NCBI GenBank assembly: GCA_018715825.1
Contig: DVKU01000030.1
Location: forward strand, 1 to 14,555
DNA length: 14,555 bases
DNA from: Candidatus Avacholeplasma faecigallinarum
Lineage (GTDB): Bacteria > Bacillota_I > Bacilli_A > Acholeplasmatales > Anaeroplasmataceae
Reading direction: 5' to 3'
How positions within the stretch are numbered: the stretch's first letter is position 1; each line of letters starts with the position of its first letter. Made by a program: the position numbers and the translations under genes. This document shows, in pieces, positions 3,964 to 11,978 of the stretch. Below the pieces are notes generated by a model. It was given only the letters and a program-made list of their open reading frames with translations. It made no database searches and was not told the origin of the DNA.

Positions 3964-3991
3964 ACAAAAAAAGACGAGATTAACTCGTCTT
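3964..3991 (-). terminator. Intrinsic terminator of the asd-lysC-dapL unit
   Basis: On the minus strand AAGACGAG (3984-3991) pairs perfectly with CTCGTCTT (3971-3978) around a 5-nt loop, and a run of T residues continues. The 5' arm overlaps the last bases of the deacetylase stop codon (TAA 3990-3992). This is a textbook Rho-independent terminator closing the lysine gene cluster. Confidence 0.9.
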
Positions 3992-5081
3992 AATCACTAA
4001 ATTTAAATGTTGCTAAAGTAACATAAGCTTCTACACCAACATTTAAAATATTCATATCAAAATCAAATGTATCAGTATGAAGTAAATGCTCACTACCACA
4101 ACCTATTAGCATAAACATAGATTTAATGTGCCTTGTATAACAGCCAAAATCCTCAGCCTGCAAAAATGGTTTTGTTAAAATCTCTAAATTTAAAACATCT
4201 TTATACTCAGAAACTAACTTACTATCATTTATGACAGCTGGATAAATTCCATTATAGCTAACATTAATTTCAGTATTATACATTTTAGCTAAATTAGAAG
4301 CAAGCTGTTGAAGCTTTATTCTAATCAAATCAAATGTTTCATCTGAAAATGCTCTTAAAGTACCTTCTATTTTAGCTTGAGAGGCAACTATATTTCTTGC
4401 AGTACCAGAAACCATTTTACCAAAATGAATCAAATGAGGCTGATCTAAATCCTTCATTTGATCGTAATATTCATTAATTAATCTTGTGGCGATATAAAGG
4501 GCATCAATTCCATCCTTTTTATTAGCAGCATGAACTGACTTCCCAACTATATCTATATTTACCTCACATGATGATGCTAGCATACCTTTAGGCATCGTAT
4601 AAATTTTACCTAAATTCAAGTTAGGCCAAATATGAAATCCAAATATCCTTTCAACGTTTAATTTGGTTAAAATTTTTGATTCAATTATATCATTAGCTCC
4701 ACAATTATCTTCCTCTGAGGGTTGAAATAAACATACAATATTATTTTGTAATTTATCTAAATTTTCGTTTGCAAATAAGGCAAATTGTAAAAGCATAGCC
4801 ATATGACCATCATGGGCACAGGCATGCATTAAACCATTATGCTTTGATTGAAATTCTAAGTTTGTCTTTTCACAAATTGGAAGTGCATCCATATCTGCTC
4901 TAAAACAAATTGTATGTTCTTTTTGACAATCAAAATATAACACTACAGATGTTTTAGTTGGAGTAAAAATTTCACACTTAAAATCCTTAACGAAATTTAA
5001 AATATATTCCTTAGTTTTATATTCCTGTCGACCTAATTCAGGAATTTGATGAAGGTCTTTTCTAATTGAAGCTACACTCAT
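3990..5081 (-). CDS. dapL: N-acetyldiaminopimelate deacetylase (M20 amidohydrolase)
   Basis: 363 aa, cytoplasmic metalloenzyme. It is expected to remove acetate from N-acetyl-LL-2,6-diaminopimelate, giving LL-DAP. M20 family motifs: LHQIPELG near the N terminus (10-17), FRADMDALP (60-68), the metal ligands in HACAHDGH (86-93, H90/H93), the catalytic/metal pair in PSEED (E123, E124), GFHIWPN (148-154, H150) and the C-terminal SEHLLHTDTFDF region. M20 amidohydrolases also include hippurate and IAA-amino acid hydrolases. The assignment to DAP rests on the operon context and on the partner acetyltransferase dapH. Start ATG 5081 lies 1 nt after the distal lysC stop and has only a weak GGTAG ribosome site, suggesting coupling to lysC translation. 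The TAG inside lysC would disturb that. The symbol dapL is used here in the Bacillus sense (YkuR type), not for the LL-DAP aminotransferase that shares the name. Confidence 0.82.
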   Translation of the reverse strand: MSVASIRKDLHQIPELGRQEYKTKEYILNFVKDFKCEIFTPTKTSVVLYFDCQKEHTICFRADMDALPICEKTNLEFQSKHNGLMHACAHDGHMAMLLQFALFANENLDKLQNNIVCLFQPSEEDNCGANDIIESKILTKLNVERIFGFHIWPNLNLGKIYTMPKGMLASSCEVNIDIVGKSVHAANKKDGIDALYIATRLINEYYDQMKDLDQPHLIHFGKMVSGTARNIVASQAKIEGTLRAFSDETFDLIRIKLQQLASNLAKMYNTEINVSYNGIYPAVINDSKLVSEYKDVLNLEILTKPFLQAEDFGCYTRHIKSMFMLIGCGSEHLLHTDTFDFDMNILNVGVEAYVTLATFKFSD

Positions 5082-5082
5082 A

Positions 5083-5430
5083 TTAAGCTACCAAATTATT
5101 ATAAAGTGAACGAATTGTTTGTTCATAATCCTTAGAGGCAACACCAATAATTATATTTAATTCCTCTGGACCCTGAGCTAACAGCTTAACATTTATTTTT
5201 TGTTCACCAAGTGTTTGGAATATTGTTCCACAAATACCACTACGCTTAGCCATATTTCTACCAACGATTGCAACTAAGGCTATATCGGATTCAATTGATA
5301 CATCAGCATCAAGTGTTTTCTTTAAATCGGTTACTAGTTCATATTGACATTTTTCAACTGAAGCCTGTGATACAACAACACTAAATGAATCTATTCCTGA
5401 TGGAATATGTTCAATAGAAACATTATACTT
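5083..5430 (-). pseudogene. lysC: Aspartokinase C-terminal ACT-domain tail cut off from lysC by an in-frame TAG
   Basis: Reading on from the TAG at 5431-5433 in the same frame gives 115 uninterrupted codons, then TAA at 5083-5085. The product begins KYNVSIEHIPSGIDSFSVVV, the usual ACT1 segment of aspartokinases, and continues with a second ACT domain (VAIVGRNMAKRSGICGTIF, then LGEQKINVKLLAQG and a final NIIIGV strand). This is the part that binds lysine and/or threonine and drives dimerisation. There is no start codon near its beginning and no Shine-Dalgarno, so it is probably translated only if the TAG is read through. Absence of further damage indicates either a very recent mutation, a sequence error or functional readthrough. 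Joined to the upstream part it would give a 434-aa aspartokinase of normal length. Confidence 0.85.
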
Positions 5431-6387
5431 CTAAAATACAGATAAGGCTCTTCTTAAAAAACCAACTTCATTTGACATATGATCTTTAGAAATGTTGAAT
5501 GATAAGAAATCCTTTTTACCAGCTATACCAGTAACTATACTGCTTTCATCTGTACAAACATTCTTTATTAATGTTCCTGGATGGTCTGGATCATTAGTAT
5601 TTTTTAAATTAATAGGTATATTTAATTGCTGAACAGGGAAAACAGTTTCTTCATGTAAAACTGATGCTCCCATATAAGAAAGCTCTCTTAATTCTGCATA
5701 AGTTATCTCTTTAATAGCCCGAGGTGAGGGAATTATTCTCGGATCAGCGGCTAATATACCAGATACATCAGTCCAATTCTCATATAGAGTTACATTTAAA
5801 CATTTTGAAAGAATTGAGCCTGTAACATCAGACCCCCCTCTTGATAATAGTTTGACACTACCATTAGGGTATGAACCATAAAATCCAGGTACTACGATAG
5901 TTCCATATGTAGAAAAGGCTAGTTTGACATTTTTTGTCGTTGTAGCTTCATCCATTAAACCATCATAATTAAAGCATAATAAATCCTTAGCATCAACGAA
6001 CTGATATCCTAAATAGCTACTCATAAGCTTAGCTGTTAAATACTCACCACGTGATACTAGATAATCCTGAGATATATTTTTATTTAACTCTTTATATAAT
6101 AAATCTAAATCAACCTTAATATCGTAAGAGATATTAAGTTCCTTTTGAACCCCAACAAAACGATCATAAATCATATTCCATATATCCTGATAGGGAACAG
6201 AATATTTTAAATGGGCATGTAATATATATAATAAATCAGTTATTTTTGTATCAGATGAATCGCGTTTACCTAAGGCAGATACAACAACAATCTTTCTCTT
6301 AGGGTCTGACATCACTATCTTTTTTACTTTTTCAAATTGAGTAGCACATGATAATGAGCTACCTCCAAACTTTGTTACAACCAACAT
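5431..6387 (-). CDS. lysC: Aspartokinase, catalytic domain, prematurely stopped in ACT1
   Basis: 318 aa as read. It phosphorylates L-aspartate with ATP, the entry step to lysine, threonine and methionine. The amino acid kinase domain is complete: TKFGGSS (5-11), SRGEYLTA (112-119), SRGGSD (182-187), ENWTDVSGI (203-211), ADPR (214-217) and YMGASVLH (238-245). A linker and the first ACT strand follow (about 285-300), and the reading stops at TAG after GFLRRALSVF, inside the first ACT helix. Usual length is 400-455 aa. The codon position normally holds Glu, Gln or similar, and TAG is one substitution away from CAG, GAG or AAG. RBS AGGAGG lies 5 nt before ATG 6387, 12 nt after the asd stop. If truly truncated, the enzyme loses feedback control and may fold or dimerise poorly. 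No riboswitch governs its proximal promoter. Confidence 0.88.
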   Translation of the reverse strand: MLVVTKFGGSSLSCATQFEKVKKIVMSDPKRKIVVVSALGKRDSSDTKITDLLYILHAHLKYSVPYQDIWNMIYDRFVGVQKELNISYDIKVDLDLLYKELNKNISQDYLVSRGEYLTAKLMSSYLGYQFVDAKDLLCFNYDGLMDEATTTKNVKLAFSTYGTIVVPGFYGSYPNGSVKLLSRGGSDVTGSILSKCLNVTLYENWTDVSGILAADPRIIPSPRAIKEITYAELRELSYMGASVLHEETVFPVQQLNIPINLKNTNDPDHPGTLIKNVCTDESSIVTGIAGKKDFLSFNISKDHMSNEVGFLRRALSVF

Positions 6388-6399
6388 AATAACCTCCTA

Positions 6400-7407
6400 T
6401 TATTCAAGCCCGATTAATTTCATTGCAATTTGGACAGCATTTGTTGCGGCACCTTTTCTAACCTGATCTCCAGAACACCATAATGTTATTCCATTTTCAA
6501 AAACTAAATCCTTACGAATTCTTCCTACATAAACTAAATCTTGATCAGAAGTTACAATAGGCATTGGATATTGCTTCTCATTAGGAGAATCATAAAGCCT
6601 ACATCCTGGATAATTAGCTATAGCATTTTTAACATCATCAAGGTTTAAAACATCTTCAGTATAAACGCTAACGCTTATACAATGTGATCTTAAAACTGGA
6701 ACACGAACACATGTACAAGTAACCTTTAAATCTGGCAAATGCATAATTTTTCTACCTTCATTTTGCATTTTCATTTCTTCAGTAGTATAACCATTTTCTA
6801 AAAAAGACCCAATATGAGGAATTACATTATGCACAATTTGATATTGAAAAACTTGTGGTTTAATTTCCTTATTATTTAAAACAGCATCCATCTGCTCACA
6901 TAATTCAACTGGTCCCTGAGCACCAGCACCACTTGTTGCCTGATAAGTAGATGCTACCATAGCCTTTATCTTTGATAATTTATTAATAGCTGCTACAGCC
7001 ATTAAAGTAATTATTGTTGAGCAATTAGGATTAGCAATAATACCATTATGCTTAAAAGCATCCATTGGATTAATTTCAGGCACTACTAAAGGAACATTAT
7101 CATCCATTCTAAAAGCACTAGAATTATCAATAAAAACTGCCTTTGCCTTAACTATATCATTAGCAAATTTTTTAGCCACAGCATTAGAGGCTGCTCCTAA
7201 AACAAAATCCAAGCCCTCAAATGCATCATGACTAGCTAAATTAATAGTATATTCTTGACCTTTAAATAATATTTTTTTACCAACACTACGACTACTAGCC
7301 AGTAAACGTAGTTCGTTTATTGGGAAATTTCTTTCTTCTAATACCTTTAGCATTTCACGTCCAACAGCACCTGTTGCTCCTAAAATTCCAACATTATATT
7401 TCCTCAT
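6400..7407 (-). CDS. asd: Aspartate-semialdehyde dehydrogenase
   Basis: 335 aa, full length. It reduces aspartyl-4-phosphate with NADPH to aspartate semialdehyde, the branch metabolite for lysine/DAP and threonine/methionine. An N-terminal Rossmann motif GATGAVG (10-16), the nucleophile in ANPNCST (C129), the following YQATSG (155-160, Q156) and the general base in LRSHC (H242) are all present. ATG 7407 is preceded by GGAGAG with a 7-nt gap. It is the first gene of the asd-lysC-dapL unit, about 30 nt downstream of the predicted start of transcription at the promoter 7444-7472. Order asd then lysC matches many Bacillota. Nothing unusual is visible in the protein. Confidence 0.95.
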   Translation of the reverse strand: MRKYNVGILGATGAVGREMLKVLEERNFPINELRLLASSRSVGKKILFKGQEYTINLASHDAFEGLDFVLGAASNAVAKKFANDIVKAKAVFIDNSSAFRMDDNVPLVVPEINPMDAFKHNGIIANPNCSTIITLMAVAAINKLSKIKAMVASTYQATSGAGAQGPVELCEQMDAVLNNKEIKPQVFQYQIVHNVIPHIGSFLENGYTTEEMKMQNEGRKIMHLPDLKVTCTCVRVPVLRSHCISVSVYTEDVLNLDDVKNAIANYPGCRLYDSPNEKQYPMPIVTSDQDLVYVGRIRKDLVFENGITLWCSGDQVRKGAATNAVQIAMKLIGLE

Positions 7408-7443
7408 CTTTAAACTCTCCTATTTATTCCTATATAATTGTTA

Positions 7444-7472
7444 ATTATAAAACCTTATTACCCTTATTTCAA
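7444..7472 (-). promoter_or_regulatory. Near-consensus promoter of asd-lysC-dapL
   Basis: On the minus strand TTGAAA (7467-7472), exactly 17 nt, then TATAAT (7444-7449). Only one base differs from the sigma-A consensus. The leader to the asd start codon would be about 30 nt, too short for a riboswitch or T-box. asd, lysC and the deacetylase can therefore be transcribed independently of the lysine riboswitch at 11983-12151. Confidence 0.75.
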
Positions 7473-7517
7473 CATAAAAACATATTTTTCTTTTACATTT
7501 TTCGATTTTGTTTTTCA

Positions 7518-7565
7518 TAGGAGGACAAAATAAGTTTTATGTAATAAATTTTATTTTGCCTCCTA
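7518..7565. repeat. Long inverted repeat (hairpin) in the dapH-asd gap
   Basis: Arms TAGGAGG (7518-7524) and CCTCCTA (7559-7565), then CAAAATAA (7526-7533) and TTATTTTG (7551-7558) with one bulged A (7525). An inner TTTAT/ATAAA pair (7536-7540/7544-7548) closes a 3-nt loop. That is about 20 bp in total. Neither side has a T-run, so it is not a classic terminator. It lies after the dapH stop and before the asd promoter. Confidence 0.7.
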
Positions 7566-7599
7566 ATTTATTAAATGCTTTAAAATATCTAATGACTAT

Positions 7600-8295
7600 T
7601 TATAAAGTCCTTAATGCTTGAATTAATTCTGTTTTTTCTGTTGTTTTTTGATCCTTTTTCTTTAAAATGCGTGCAGGAACTCCACCTACAACAACACCAC
7701 TTTCTACATCATCTATTACTACACTTCCAGCTGCAACAACAGAATTTTTACCAATTCTAACGCCCTCAATAACAACAGCATTGGCACCAATTAATACACC
7801 ATCTTCTACTACAACAGGTTTTGCTGAGGCAGGCTCTACAACACCAGCTAAAACAGCACCAGCACCAATGTGGCAATTTTTACCTACTATTGCTCTACCA
7901 CCTAAAACAGCATTCATATCTATCATAGTATTATCACCAATAACTGCTCCAATATTAATAACGGCGCCCATCATAATAACGGCGTTATTACCAATTTCAA
8001 CCATATCTCTTATAATTGCACCTGGTTCTATTCTGGCATTAATATTTTTTGTATCAAGAAGAGGAATTGCTGAATTACGACAATCATTTTCAATTTCGAT
8101 GTCAACTATTTGGTTTTTATACTTATCTATTATAGGCATAATATCGTTAGCTTCAGCAAAAATAACATAAAGATCTTTATTGCCAAAATATTTAAAGCCT
8201 GTAAAATCTAAATCACAATTAGCCTTTAAGAAAATTTTTAAAGGTGTTTTCTTCTTTGAATTTTTAATTAAATTTATAATTTCATTAGCATCCAT
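7600..8295 (-). CDS. dapH: Tetrahydrodipicolinate N-acetyltransferase
   Basis: 231 aa. It transfers acetyl from acetyl-CoA to tetrahydrodipicolinate, committing the cell to the acetyl variant of the DAP pathway. A short N-terminal alpha/beta domain (about 1-80) is followed by a left-handed beta-helix of hexapeptide repeats (about 88-205: [19 protein letters not shown], then [19 protein letters not shown]). The loop [24 protein letters not shown] is characteristic of DapH rather than the succinyltransferase DapD. Length is close to the Bacillus enzyme (about 236). ATG 8295 is 2 nt after the dapB stop, with AAGGA upstream. It is the last gene of the riboswitch-controlled unit; a long hairpin and the asd promoter follow. 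Confidence 0.93.
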
Positions 8296-8297
8296 AA

Positions 8298-9011
8298 TTA
8301 TTCCTTTCCAAAAAGCACATCATCCATAGTATAAAGCCCATTAGGCTTATTACATAAATAATGGGCAGCTTTTATAGCGCCTACAGCAAATATTTTTTTA
8401 GAATGAGCACTGTGCTTTAAGCTTAACACCTCATCCTCACCACAATATAGCACCTCATGCTCACCAACTATGCTACCGCCTCTAATGGCATGAACACCAA
8501 CCTCATTTGGCTTTCTAGGGCAATAGCCTTCTCTACCAAAAATCGGTGTAAAATCAGTTGCCTCAACAACTGAATTTAATAGCATCTTAGCTGTGCCACT
8601 TGGTGCATCAATTTTGTTATGATGATGCGCCTCGATAATTTCAATATCAAATGAATCCTTTAAAATAGGTGTAATTTCCTTTACCAATTTATTTAACAAA
8701 ATAACTCCAAGTGAGAAATTAGCACTTTGTAGGACTGGTGTATAATTAGCTAAATCCTTTATTTTAAGTAAATCTGCCTCGCTATACCCAGTTGTTGCAA
8801 AAATAACAGCCTTATGATGCATCTTAGCATAGCTAATAATCATATCTAAATTACAAGGATTAGAAAAATCGATTATGCAGTCAAAATCTCCATCAGTATC
8901 ATCTAATTTTTTATATTCACATTCTAATGCTACAGAGTATTTAAATTCATCCTTTAGCATTTCTTTTACAATTTTACCCATTGCTCCATAGCCAACTACA
9001 CAAGCCTTCAT
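8298..9011 (-). CDS. dapB: 4-hydroxy-tetrahydrodipicolinate reductase
   Basis: 237 aa. It reduces the DapA product to tetrahydrodipicolinate with NAD(P)H. N-terminal dinucleotide-binding motif GYGAMGK (7-13), the FATTGYS loop (71-77), and the catalytic [15 protein letters not shown] segment (127-141) with histidines 129-131, K133 and the substrate-binding [18 protein letters not shown] motif (178-187) follows. It is shorter than the about 270-aa E. coli enzyme, like other compact versions, with no motif missing. Its ATG overlaps the dapA stop as TAATG, so translation is coupled. Confidence 0.95.
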
Positions 9012-9892
9012 TAATAAATTATCTCCTTTTTTAAATCTAGTTCGTTAAATAAAACTTCTTTGTTCTTATCAGACATCTCATCAAGAGGCATTCTATATCC
9101 ACCAACATTAAAACCTAAATGGTTCATTGCAGCCTTAATTGGAATAGGATTAACCTCTAAAAATAAATCATTTATAACATCTAAAAGATCTTGTTGAATT
9201 TTATTAGCATCGGGATATAAACCTTCTAAGCACAAATTTATCATTTTAGCAGTTTGTTTAGGGGCAATATTAGCTAAAACAGAAATTACTCCCTTACTGC
9301 CAATTGCCATCATAGGAACTATAATATCATCATTACCAGAATACATAGCAAAATCATCACTAATATATTTACTAACCTTAGTTGAATAGCTTATATTTCC
9401 TGATGCTTCTTTGATTCCACATATATTAGGATGCTTAGAGAGTACCTCTATGGCATGAAGAGACATATTCATACCTGTCCTACTTGGAACATTATACATA
9501 ATTACTGGACATAGGCTAGCATCTGCTACCATTGTAAAGTGCTTGATTAAACCACTTTCATTAGTTTTATTATAGTAAGGTGTTATAACCAAAACATAAT
9601 CTGCACCTAGCTCTGAATATTTTCTAGACATCTTAACAGCCTTTTCAGTCTCATTTGATCCTGAACCAACTATTAATGGTATTCTTTTATTTATCTTATT
9701 TACACAATACTCAACGATTTGAGCCTCTTCATCAAAAGATAAAGTCGATGCCTCACCTGTTGTACCTAAAATAACAATACCACCCGTATGATTATTTATA
9801 TGATATTCTAATAATTCTCCTAACTTTTCGTAATTTACACTTCCATCATTATTAAATGGAGTTATAAGTGCTACAATACTACCCTTTAACAT
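9011..9892 (-). CDS. dapA: 4-hydroxy-tetrahydrodipicolinate synthase
   Basis: 293 aa TIM barrel. It condenses pyruvate with aspartate semialdehyde, the first step specific to DAP and lysine. Active-site residues match the family and E. coli numbering: GTTGEAST (T44, T45), Y106/Y107, YNVPSRTG (Y133, R138) and the Schiff-base lysine in GIKEASG (K161). ATG 9892 is 1 nt after the dapF stop, with GGAGG 9 nt upstream. The protein is full length with no oddities. Whether it is lysine-inhibited cannot be judged from the visible motifs; regulation through the upstream riboswitch is expected. Confidence 0.96.
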   Translation of the reverse strand: MLKGSIVALITPFNNDGSVNYEKLGELLEYHINNHTGGIVILGTTGEASTLSFDEEAQIVEYCVNKINKRIPLIVGSGSNETEKAVKMSRKYSELGADYVLVITPYYNKTNESGLIKHFTMVADASLCPVIMYNVPSRTGMNMSLHAIEVLSKHPNICGIKEASGNISYSTKVSKYISDDFAMYSGNDDIIVPMMAIGSKGVISVLANIAPKQTAKMINLCLEGLYPDANKIQQDLLDVINDLFLEVNPIPIKAAMNHLGFNVGGYRMPLDEMSDKNKEVLFNELDLKKEIIY

Positions 9893-9893
9893 C

Positions 9894-10700
9894 TTAAATT
9901 TCCTCCTTTATTTCACATTCAAAAACCTTAGTTGCAGGACCAGTCATAAAAACATCATTCTTCTTTAACTCAATCTCTAAAAATCCTAATTCCAATATCG
10001 CTTTAACCTTAGTGCCTACTAAGCCAAGTCTATTAGCTGCTACAACAGAAGCACAACAGCCTGTTCCACAGGCAAGTGTCCATCCTACACCTCTTTCATA
10101 GGTTTTAACCTCGATATTTTCTTTGTTTATAACTCTTACAAAGTTAACGTTTGTCTTTTTAGTAAACAATGGATTATTACATATTTTAGAGGCATATTCT
10201 ACTACGTTATCTGTAAAATCATTTACAAAAATGACTGTATGAATAGTTCCCATAAAAAACGAATAAATTGTAATAAGACTATCATTAATTTTAATAACTC
10301 TACCGAAAGAATCTATATCGTCATTAACATAAATCATTTGATTTGTAAAAATTGGCTTACCCATATAAACCTTACAGGTAAAATTTTGGGGATTAACTAT
10401 TTCTAATTCTAATTGACCAGCTCCAGTCACTACTGGAAATTTTAGTTTATTAACCAATTTATGCTCATAAGCATATAAAGCAAAGCATCTAATTCCATTT
10501 CCACACATAAGTGCTCTACTACCATCGGCATTATAAAATAGCATTTCCAAAGGATCTCTTTTAACAACTATAAGGCCATCACTTCCAACCCCTGTTTTAC
10601 GGTTACAAAGCTTAAGAGCTAATTTTTCATAGTCTGTATTTTCTTTATAATCAATAAGACAAAAATCATTTCCACAGCCGTGCATCTTTTCAACTTTCAT
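9894..10700 (-). CDS. dapF: Diaminopimelate epimerase
   Basis: 268 aa, cofactor-independent two-cysteine epimerase turning LL-DAP into meso-DAP for peptidoglycan and for LysA. MHGCGNDF near the N terminus (6-13); the first catalytic cysteine in ALMCGNGIRCF (C66); the second in TLACGTGCCAS (C211); substrate contacts YERG (201-204). Two positions differ from common versions. The usual GNPH motif reads GTIH (151-154), and the residue after YERGVG is Trp207 where Glu is frequent. Both cysteines and the catalytic-region His154 remain, so I expect activity. ATG 10700 is 1 nt after the lysA stop with a weak GAGAG ribosome site, indicating coupling. Confidence 0.93.
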   Translation of the reverse strand: MKVEKMHGCGNDFCLIDYKENTDYEKLALKLCNRKTGVGSDGLIVVKRDPLEMLFYNADGSRALMCGNGIRCFALYAYEHKLVNKLKFPVVTGAGQLELEIVNPQNFTCKVYMGKPIFTNQMIYVNDDIDSFGRVIKINDSLITIYSFFMGTIHTVIFVNDFTDNVVEYASKICNNPLFTKKTNVNFVRVINKENIEVKTYERGVGWTLACGTGCCASVVAANRLGLVGTKVKAILELGFLEIELKKNDVFMTGPATKVFECEIKEEI

Positions 10701-10701
10701 A

Positions 10702-11937
10702 TTACAACTCTCTTTCTAATAACTCATCAATTGTTTGACGTCTACAAACAAGCTTGTCCTTACCATCATTTACAAAAACTACTGCAGGTGTTAAAGCCTT
10801 ATTATAATTACTGCTCATAGAATAGCCATAAGCACCAGTAGTATGTGTAATTAATAAATCTCCCTTTATAGCTTTAGGTAGAGGTATATTTTCAATGATT
10901 ATATCTCCACTTTCACAACATTTTCCAGCCACTGTAACAATTTGTGATTTCAACATATCTTCTTTTCCGATTATATCAGCATTATATTTTGCTTGATATA
11001 AAGCTGGCCTTATATTATCAGTCATACCACCATCAATAAAATAGTAAAGCTTATTAGGAGTCTTTTTAATACCACCTATAGTATATAATGTGTATCCAGC
11101 CTCAGCTACTATACTTCTACCTGGTTCAATACATAGTTTTTCAATTTGAATATTATTTTTCTCTAAAGATTTTTCACATTCATCTATTAAAGTTTTACTT
11201 ACCACATCAAAAGGTATTGGTTTATCTTCATCTACGTATTTAACACCAAAGCCACCACCTATATTTAAAATCAATGGTTGAGAAAAATTTTTACATATAT
11301 TAATTAATTTTTCTAAGGCTGCACTAAAAGCCTGCAAATCAAATATTTGGGAGCCTATGTGTGAGTGAAAACCTTTAAAATTAATATAATTAGAATTTCT
11401 AATTAAATCCATCATATTATTATATTCTATAGATTCATATAGAACACCAAACTTAGAATCCACATGAGCTGTAACAATAAACTTATGGGTATGAGCCTCA
11501 ACACCAACATTCAATCTAATTAAAATATTACATTTCTTTTGAAATTTTTGACAAAGATTTTCAAGAGTAACGAGCTCCATATAATTATCTACTACAATTG
11601 TTCCAACATTATTTTCTAAAGCACATGTAATTTCCTCTACTGACTTATTATTGCCATGAAAATAAACCTTACTCATATCAAAATCAACAGCTAAAGCTGT
11701 TTTTAATTCACCTAAAGAAACTACATCTAGCGACATACCAGCTTGTTTTACCAATCTAATCATTTCCTTAACACAGAAAGCTTTTGATGCATATAAAACC
11801 TCTGTATTAAACTTATTTGATTTAAAATTATTTAAATAGCCATTCATATTTTTAATAATGTGCTCCTCATCATAAATATATAAAGGAGTATTATACTTTT
11901 GTTTTAAAAATTCTACATCAACACCACTAATTTTCAT
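10702..11937 (-). CDS. lysA: Diaminopimelate decarboxylase
   Basis: 411 aa, PLP enzyme of the alanine-racemase fold. It decarboxylates meso-DAP to L-lysine, the final step. PLP lysine in YASKAF (K52), FHSHIGSQ (190-197), the phosphate-binding GGGFG (227-231), EPGRS (271-275), the active-site Cys of KCCESGD (339-345) and GAYGYSMSSNYN (368-379). Start choice: the frame is open up to 11973, but that region is the riboswitch terminator. Adjacent ATGs at 11940 and 11937 follow GGAGG by 2 and 5 nt respectively, so 11937 is preferred. It is the first gene behind the lysine riboswitch, so the whole lysA-dapF-dapA-dapB-dapH run should be shut off when lysine is plentiful. Confidence 0.95.
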   Translation of the reverse strand: MKISGVDVEFLKQKYNTPLYIYDEEHIIKNMNGYLNNFKSNKFNTEVLYASKAFCVKEMIRLVKQAGMSLDVVSLGELKTALAVDFDMSKVYFHGNNKSVEEITCALENNVGTIVVDNYMELVTLENLCQKFQKKCNILIRLNVGVEAHTHKFIVTAHVDSKFGVLYESIEYNNMMDLIRNSNYINFKGFHSHIGSQIFDLQAFSAALEKLINICKNFSQPLILNIGGGFGVKYVDEDKPIPFDVVSKTLIDECEKSLEKNNIQIEKLCIEPGRSIVAEAGYTLYTIGGIKKTPNKLYYFIDGGMTDNIRPALYQAKYNADIIGKEDMLKSQIVTVAGKCCESGDIIIENIPLPKAIKGDLLITHTTGAYGYSMSSNYNKALTPAVVFVNDGKDKLVCRRQTIDELLEREL

Positions 11938-11952
11938 CATAACCTCCAAAAT

Positions 11953-11978
11953 AAAAAAATAGAGTGCAGGCACTCTAT
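11953..11978 (-). terminator. Riboswitch-controlled intrinsic terminator before lysA
   Basis: The minus strand reads ATAGAGTG-CCTG-CACTCTAT (11959-11978) followed by seven T residues. It is a perfect 8-bp stem, extendable by a C-G. It lies between the riboswitch aptamer and the lysA ribosome site, the position of the lysine-triggered terminator in class L-box leaders. CACTC at 12015-12019 could pair with the GAGTG of the 5' arm as part of an alternative fold (inference). Confidence 0.9.

Follow-up and report, generated by a model that had tools for sequence, protein, structure and literature searches.

The aspartokinase gene lysC of Candidatus Avacholeplasma faecigallinarum is interrupted by an in-frame TAG codon, which raises the question of whether the stop is a fault of the assembly, a nonsense mutation or a signal from which the cell obtains more than one form of the enzyme. 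The window, which is the whole stretch of DNA that was analysed, is 14,555 nucleotides long and corresponds to contig C212 of a draft assembly from the Anaeroplasma group. The assembly comprises 216 contigs with a total of 1,278,510 bases, at 78.94% completeness and 0.91% contamination. The lysC frame occupies 5083..6387 on the minus strand and consists of 434 codons with a single interruption. It begins with ATG at 6387 and runs for 318 codons, the last of them encoding GFLRRALSVF, before it meets the TAG (codon 319) at 5431-5433. Past the TAG the same frame is open for 115 codons (codons 320-434; 5086..5430) and ends with TAA at 5083-5085. Among the 14 window genes examined, lysC alone has an internal stop.

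The 318-residue piece upstream of the TAG has a complete Pfam match to the amino-acid kinase domain (PF00696, residues 1-261; 5605..6387, minus strand) and no ACT match at E <= 0.001. The best match to lysC in the protein database is P0001, an intact, full-length protein of 434 residues with Glu at position 319 and Pfam ACT matches (PF01842 and PF22468) at residues 303-328 and 372-431, which places the window TAG within the first ACT match. The window and P0001 differ at two of the 434 positions, residue 200 (Thr in the window, Ser in P0001) and the stop itself, and are identical throughout the 115-residue tail; P0001, however, is listed as a cluster of 15 member sequences and 4 contigs and may represent another species or a non-independent sample. 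The closest solved chain to P0001 is 3tvi_A (437.6 bits, residues 2-430), a single-chain aspartokinase with which P0001 shares both sequence similarity and domain order, including the C-terminal pair of ACT domains, whereas the window copy stops at codon 319. No relative of P0001 was found in the viral collection, and the only DNA matches from the phage collection were five partial ones of 64-70% identity, none spanning 80% of the query.

The genes that flank lysC are uninterrupted. Downstream on the minus strand, with a single base between it and the lysC TAA, is an amidohydrolase gene (3990..5081) whose product we take to be of the N-acetyl-diaminopimelate deacetylase type, and upstream on the same strand are genes (6400..11973) that, to judge by context, are presumably asd, dapD, dapB, dapA, dapF and lysA of the lysine/diaminopimelate pathway. 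Neighbouring genes were compared over 8 related loci (of 31 named). Each of the upstream genes has a homologous frame in some of these loci, and their window copies lack internal stops. Of the 13 window genes other than lysC, 11 had matches in the 8 loci, and the yolD-like and umuC-like genes had none. Three stops were seen in the relatives' copies of neighbouring genes, all of them at an alignment edge (lysA in L029 and L039, no more than 6 columns from the start; the deacetylase gene in L030, 3 from the end). An open frame of 167 codons on the plus strand (7667-8170), with a high content of T, P, A and I, lies antisense to the dapD-like gene and is probably a by-product of repetitive coding on the opposite strand.

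A search of the genus covered 27 genomes, the source genome included, and gave a lysC match in 26 (none in G002). Codon 319 could be compared in 24 relatives, counted with the source genome left out together with G013, whose match comprises residues 1-206. The codon is GAA in 19 of these, AAG in 2, and CAA, GCT and TCT in one each, so that the five relatives without GAA have Lys, Gln, Ala or Ser, and in none of the 24 is it TAG or any other stop. The window frame aligns with these copies across the stop at 58-91% identity, over the whole length for 23 of them and over residues 102-433 for L025, and because 24 congeneric copies align in this way the tail is a real part of lysC rather than a chance open frame. 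The sequence-only reading had placed the TAG between an intact kinase domain and an open tail of 115 codons, which the frame, the Pfam matches and the 24 alignments all bear out, and it had proposed orthologous lysC genes as a check; these have a sense codon in 24 of 24 cases. It had expected Glu, Gln or Lys at this position, one substitution from TAG. The usual residue is indeed Glu, but the relatives' codon is mostly GAA (19/24), which is two substitutions away.

Based on these comparisons, the TAG is very probably a lesion private to a single draft genome, caused either by a fault in assembly or consensus calling or by a nonsense mutation of recent origin. In the first case an error, or a base from a minor strain drawn into the consensus, would have put the TAG in lysC; in the second the mutation would have arisen recently in the strain itself. 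The sequence-only reading had offered error, recent nonsense mutation, and readthrough or suppression as three accounts of the TAG. The lack of a stop in all 24 relatives, together with the Glu in P0001, favours the first two and disfavours the third. Error and real mutation are rated about equal with a slight lean to error, such that error or strain mixing has roughly an even chance of being the cause, and anything other than these or a private nonsense mutation is quite unlikely. A point against a private lesion is the distance from GAA. An ancestor with that codon would have to change at two positions to give TAG, which random errors and fresh mutations do not usually produce. If the immediate ancestor was GAG, a single substitution would be enough; GAG accounts for 83 of the 254 Glu codons counted across the 14 window genes and for none of the 24 relatives' codons at position 319. 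In its single stop within an otherwise open and conserved gene, and in the absence of that stop from the relatives compared, the locus resembles a familiar kind of lesion in metagenome-assembled genomes (private nonsense mutations and consensus errors), and no difference from that kind was found. Neither a new type of gene nor a new code is indicated, and the finding is an ordinary one.

That the base is real, with the strain having recently acquired a truncated aspartokinase, is given a little under an even chance, and this forms part of the high probability attached to a private lesion as a whole. The TAG is cleanly called in a frame that is open elsewhere, the other window genes are free of internal stops, and the identity of the 115-residue tail to that of P0001 is what a young mutation would leave. 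With a real TAG, translation would terminate after residue 318 and yield a kinase domain without nearly all of the ACT region. The ACT regions of aspartokinases mediate dimerisation and feedback regulation. The 318-residue product would accordingly be expected to have low stability or little activity or, at best, to escape feedback, and the strain would probably have either a lysine/diaminopimelate defect or an aspartokinase free of regulation. Against a real mutation, such a loss should be costly given that lysC sits in a lysine pathway cluster. Moreover, lysC searches of the source genome returned a single match, so that no second aspartokinase that might render the gene dispensable was found in the 79% complete assembly. 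The three other amino-acid kinase matches in the genome, which have proA-like, arg-like and translation-factor-like neighbours, are presumably proB, argB and pyrH, judged from gene order. No 318-residue protein occurred among the best 120 matches to the truncated piece, a list of cluster representatives only, and shortened copies could sit within larger protein clusters.

A further point against a real mutation is that a similar lone stop elsewhere in the genome fits base-level noise as well. In an ABC-ATPase gene of contig C164 (L083, positions 6251-6703, the same place as L078), which we assume to be ecfA2-like, one in-frame TAA is present with the stop at 6566, and the sequence on both flanks is conserved. 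Given how fragmented the assembly is, two such lesions, each with its own stop codon, are explained at least as well by base-level error or strain mixing as by biology, although the sample is small and both cases were known before sampling. Split frames with no start close by numbered 4 in the 220,696 bases scanned from the source genome, compared with 1 each in G026 (240,000 bases) and G003 (222,653 bases); as both convincing cases were known when the stretches were chosen, these counts are not a fair measure of an excess. Two of the 4 candidates are convincing (lysC and the ecfA2-like gene), and two are short and doubtful. A looser scan gave 13, 18 and 10 candidates, which were read as mostly neighbouring genes in one frame. 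One of the 13, on contig C26 (L082, minus strand), is a lipoprotein-like frame with a TGA at 5421, no ATG close behind it and a GTG 15 codons on, which could be a further lesion. On contig C6 (L079, 224-493, minus strand) an ABC-ATPase fragment that covers only profile positions 6-86 contains an in-frame TGA and looks like a gene remnant.

The tail was compared with the part before the stop for signs of decay. Against L003, L004 and L010, omega (dN/dS) for the tail is 0.031, 0.154 and 0.197, respectively, and for the part before the stop 0.028, 0.062 and 0.149. The tail value is thus somewhat higher in all three comparisons; for several pairs the synonymous sites are saturated or nearly so. 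When the relatives are compared among themselves, dN is higher in the tail in three of three pairs as well, which indicates that the raised value is not special to the window. The tail shows no clear decay, being identical to that of P0001 and only somewhat raised in dN/dS, and the relatives are too distant for dN/dS to date the stop.

The remaining accounts take the TAG as functional or tolerated. In the first, readthrough or suppression inserts an amino acid at the codon and gives two forms of the enzyme, an account consistent with the 115 open and conserved codons that follow it. The set of 13 tRNA genes found is incomplete, which leaves room for a suppressor tRNA, but ARAGORN, applied to the 13 loci with a tRNA match, detected no CUA anticodon in this partial set from the 78.94% complete genome. 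Two of these genes (L066 and L070) are for tRNA-Trp, both with a CCA anticodon, and are located on separate contigs. Use of TAG elsewhere in the genome also argues against recoding. TAG terminates 2 of the 14 window genes examined, a list in which lysC is taken to its TAA. Among 138 frames of more than 200 codons that close within the 220,696 sampled bases, TAG ends 29 (28 if lysC is left out), TAA 101 and TGA 8. Of 54 ABC-ATPase matches in the genome, 2 contain an in-frame stop, a TAA in one and a TGA in the other; none of 11 DEAD matches contains any, so that neither set has an in-frame TAG. The genome contains prfA, which encodes RF1, with a match above the curated cut-off and no stop inside the gene. 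This agrees with PMC4014445, which reports the factor from all the Mollicutes it studied. In this genome TAG functions as a normal stop, with no sign that it is read as an amino acid. Genome-wide reassignment of TAG was rejected since the codon still ends genes and RF1 has not been lost. Recoding at lysC was likewise rejected on stop usage, RF1 and the relatives, and is regarded as highly improbable. Equally slight is the chance that the strain tolerates a TAG in its one known lysC through leaky readthrough or a suppressor tRNA encoded in the fifth of the genome that the assembly lacks, in which case the enzyme would be mostly kinase-only and under little feedback.

The least credible account is that lysC is naturally split, as in the alpha/beta aspartokinases, into a kinase subunit and an ACT subunit with a start of its own. 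The ACT region is able to stand as its own chain in such enzymes (5yei, chains C and D), and one solved ACT-region chain (5yei_D, 164 residues) matches residues 282-429. In-frame ATG, GTG or TTG codons within codons 271-434 of the window frame, however, occur only at 304, 379 and 432. Translation from codon 304 would run into the TAG 15 codons on, and translation from codon 379, the first start after the TAG, would drop the first ACT match. For want of a start, a separately initiated ACT chain like 5yei_D is not encoded, as the sequence-only reading had already held, and the 24 relatives that reach codon 319 are unsplit there.

A lesion private to one draft genome thus remains the preferred explanation of the lysC TAG. 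The locus is a caution that a single stop in a fragmented draft genome can mimic recoding or domain splitting until relatives have been compared. If the TAG is true, the strain would carry a natural feedback-free or null allele of aspartokinase, which would be a modest curiosity of lysine metabolism.
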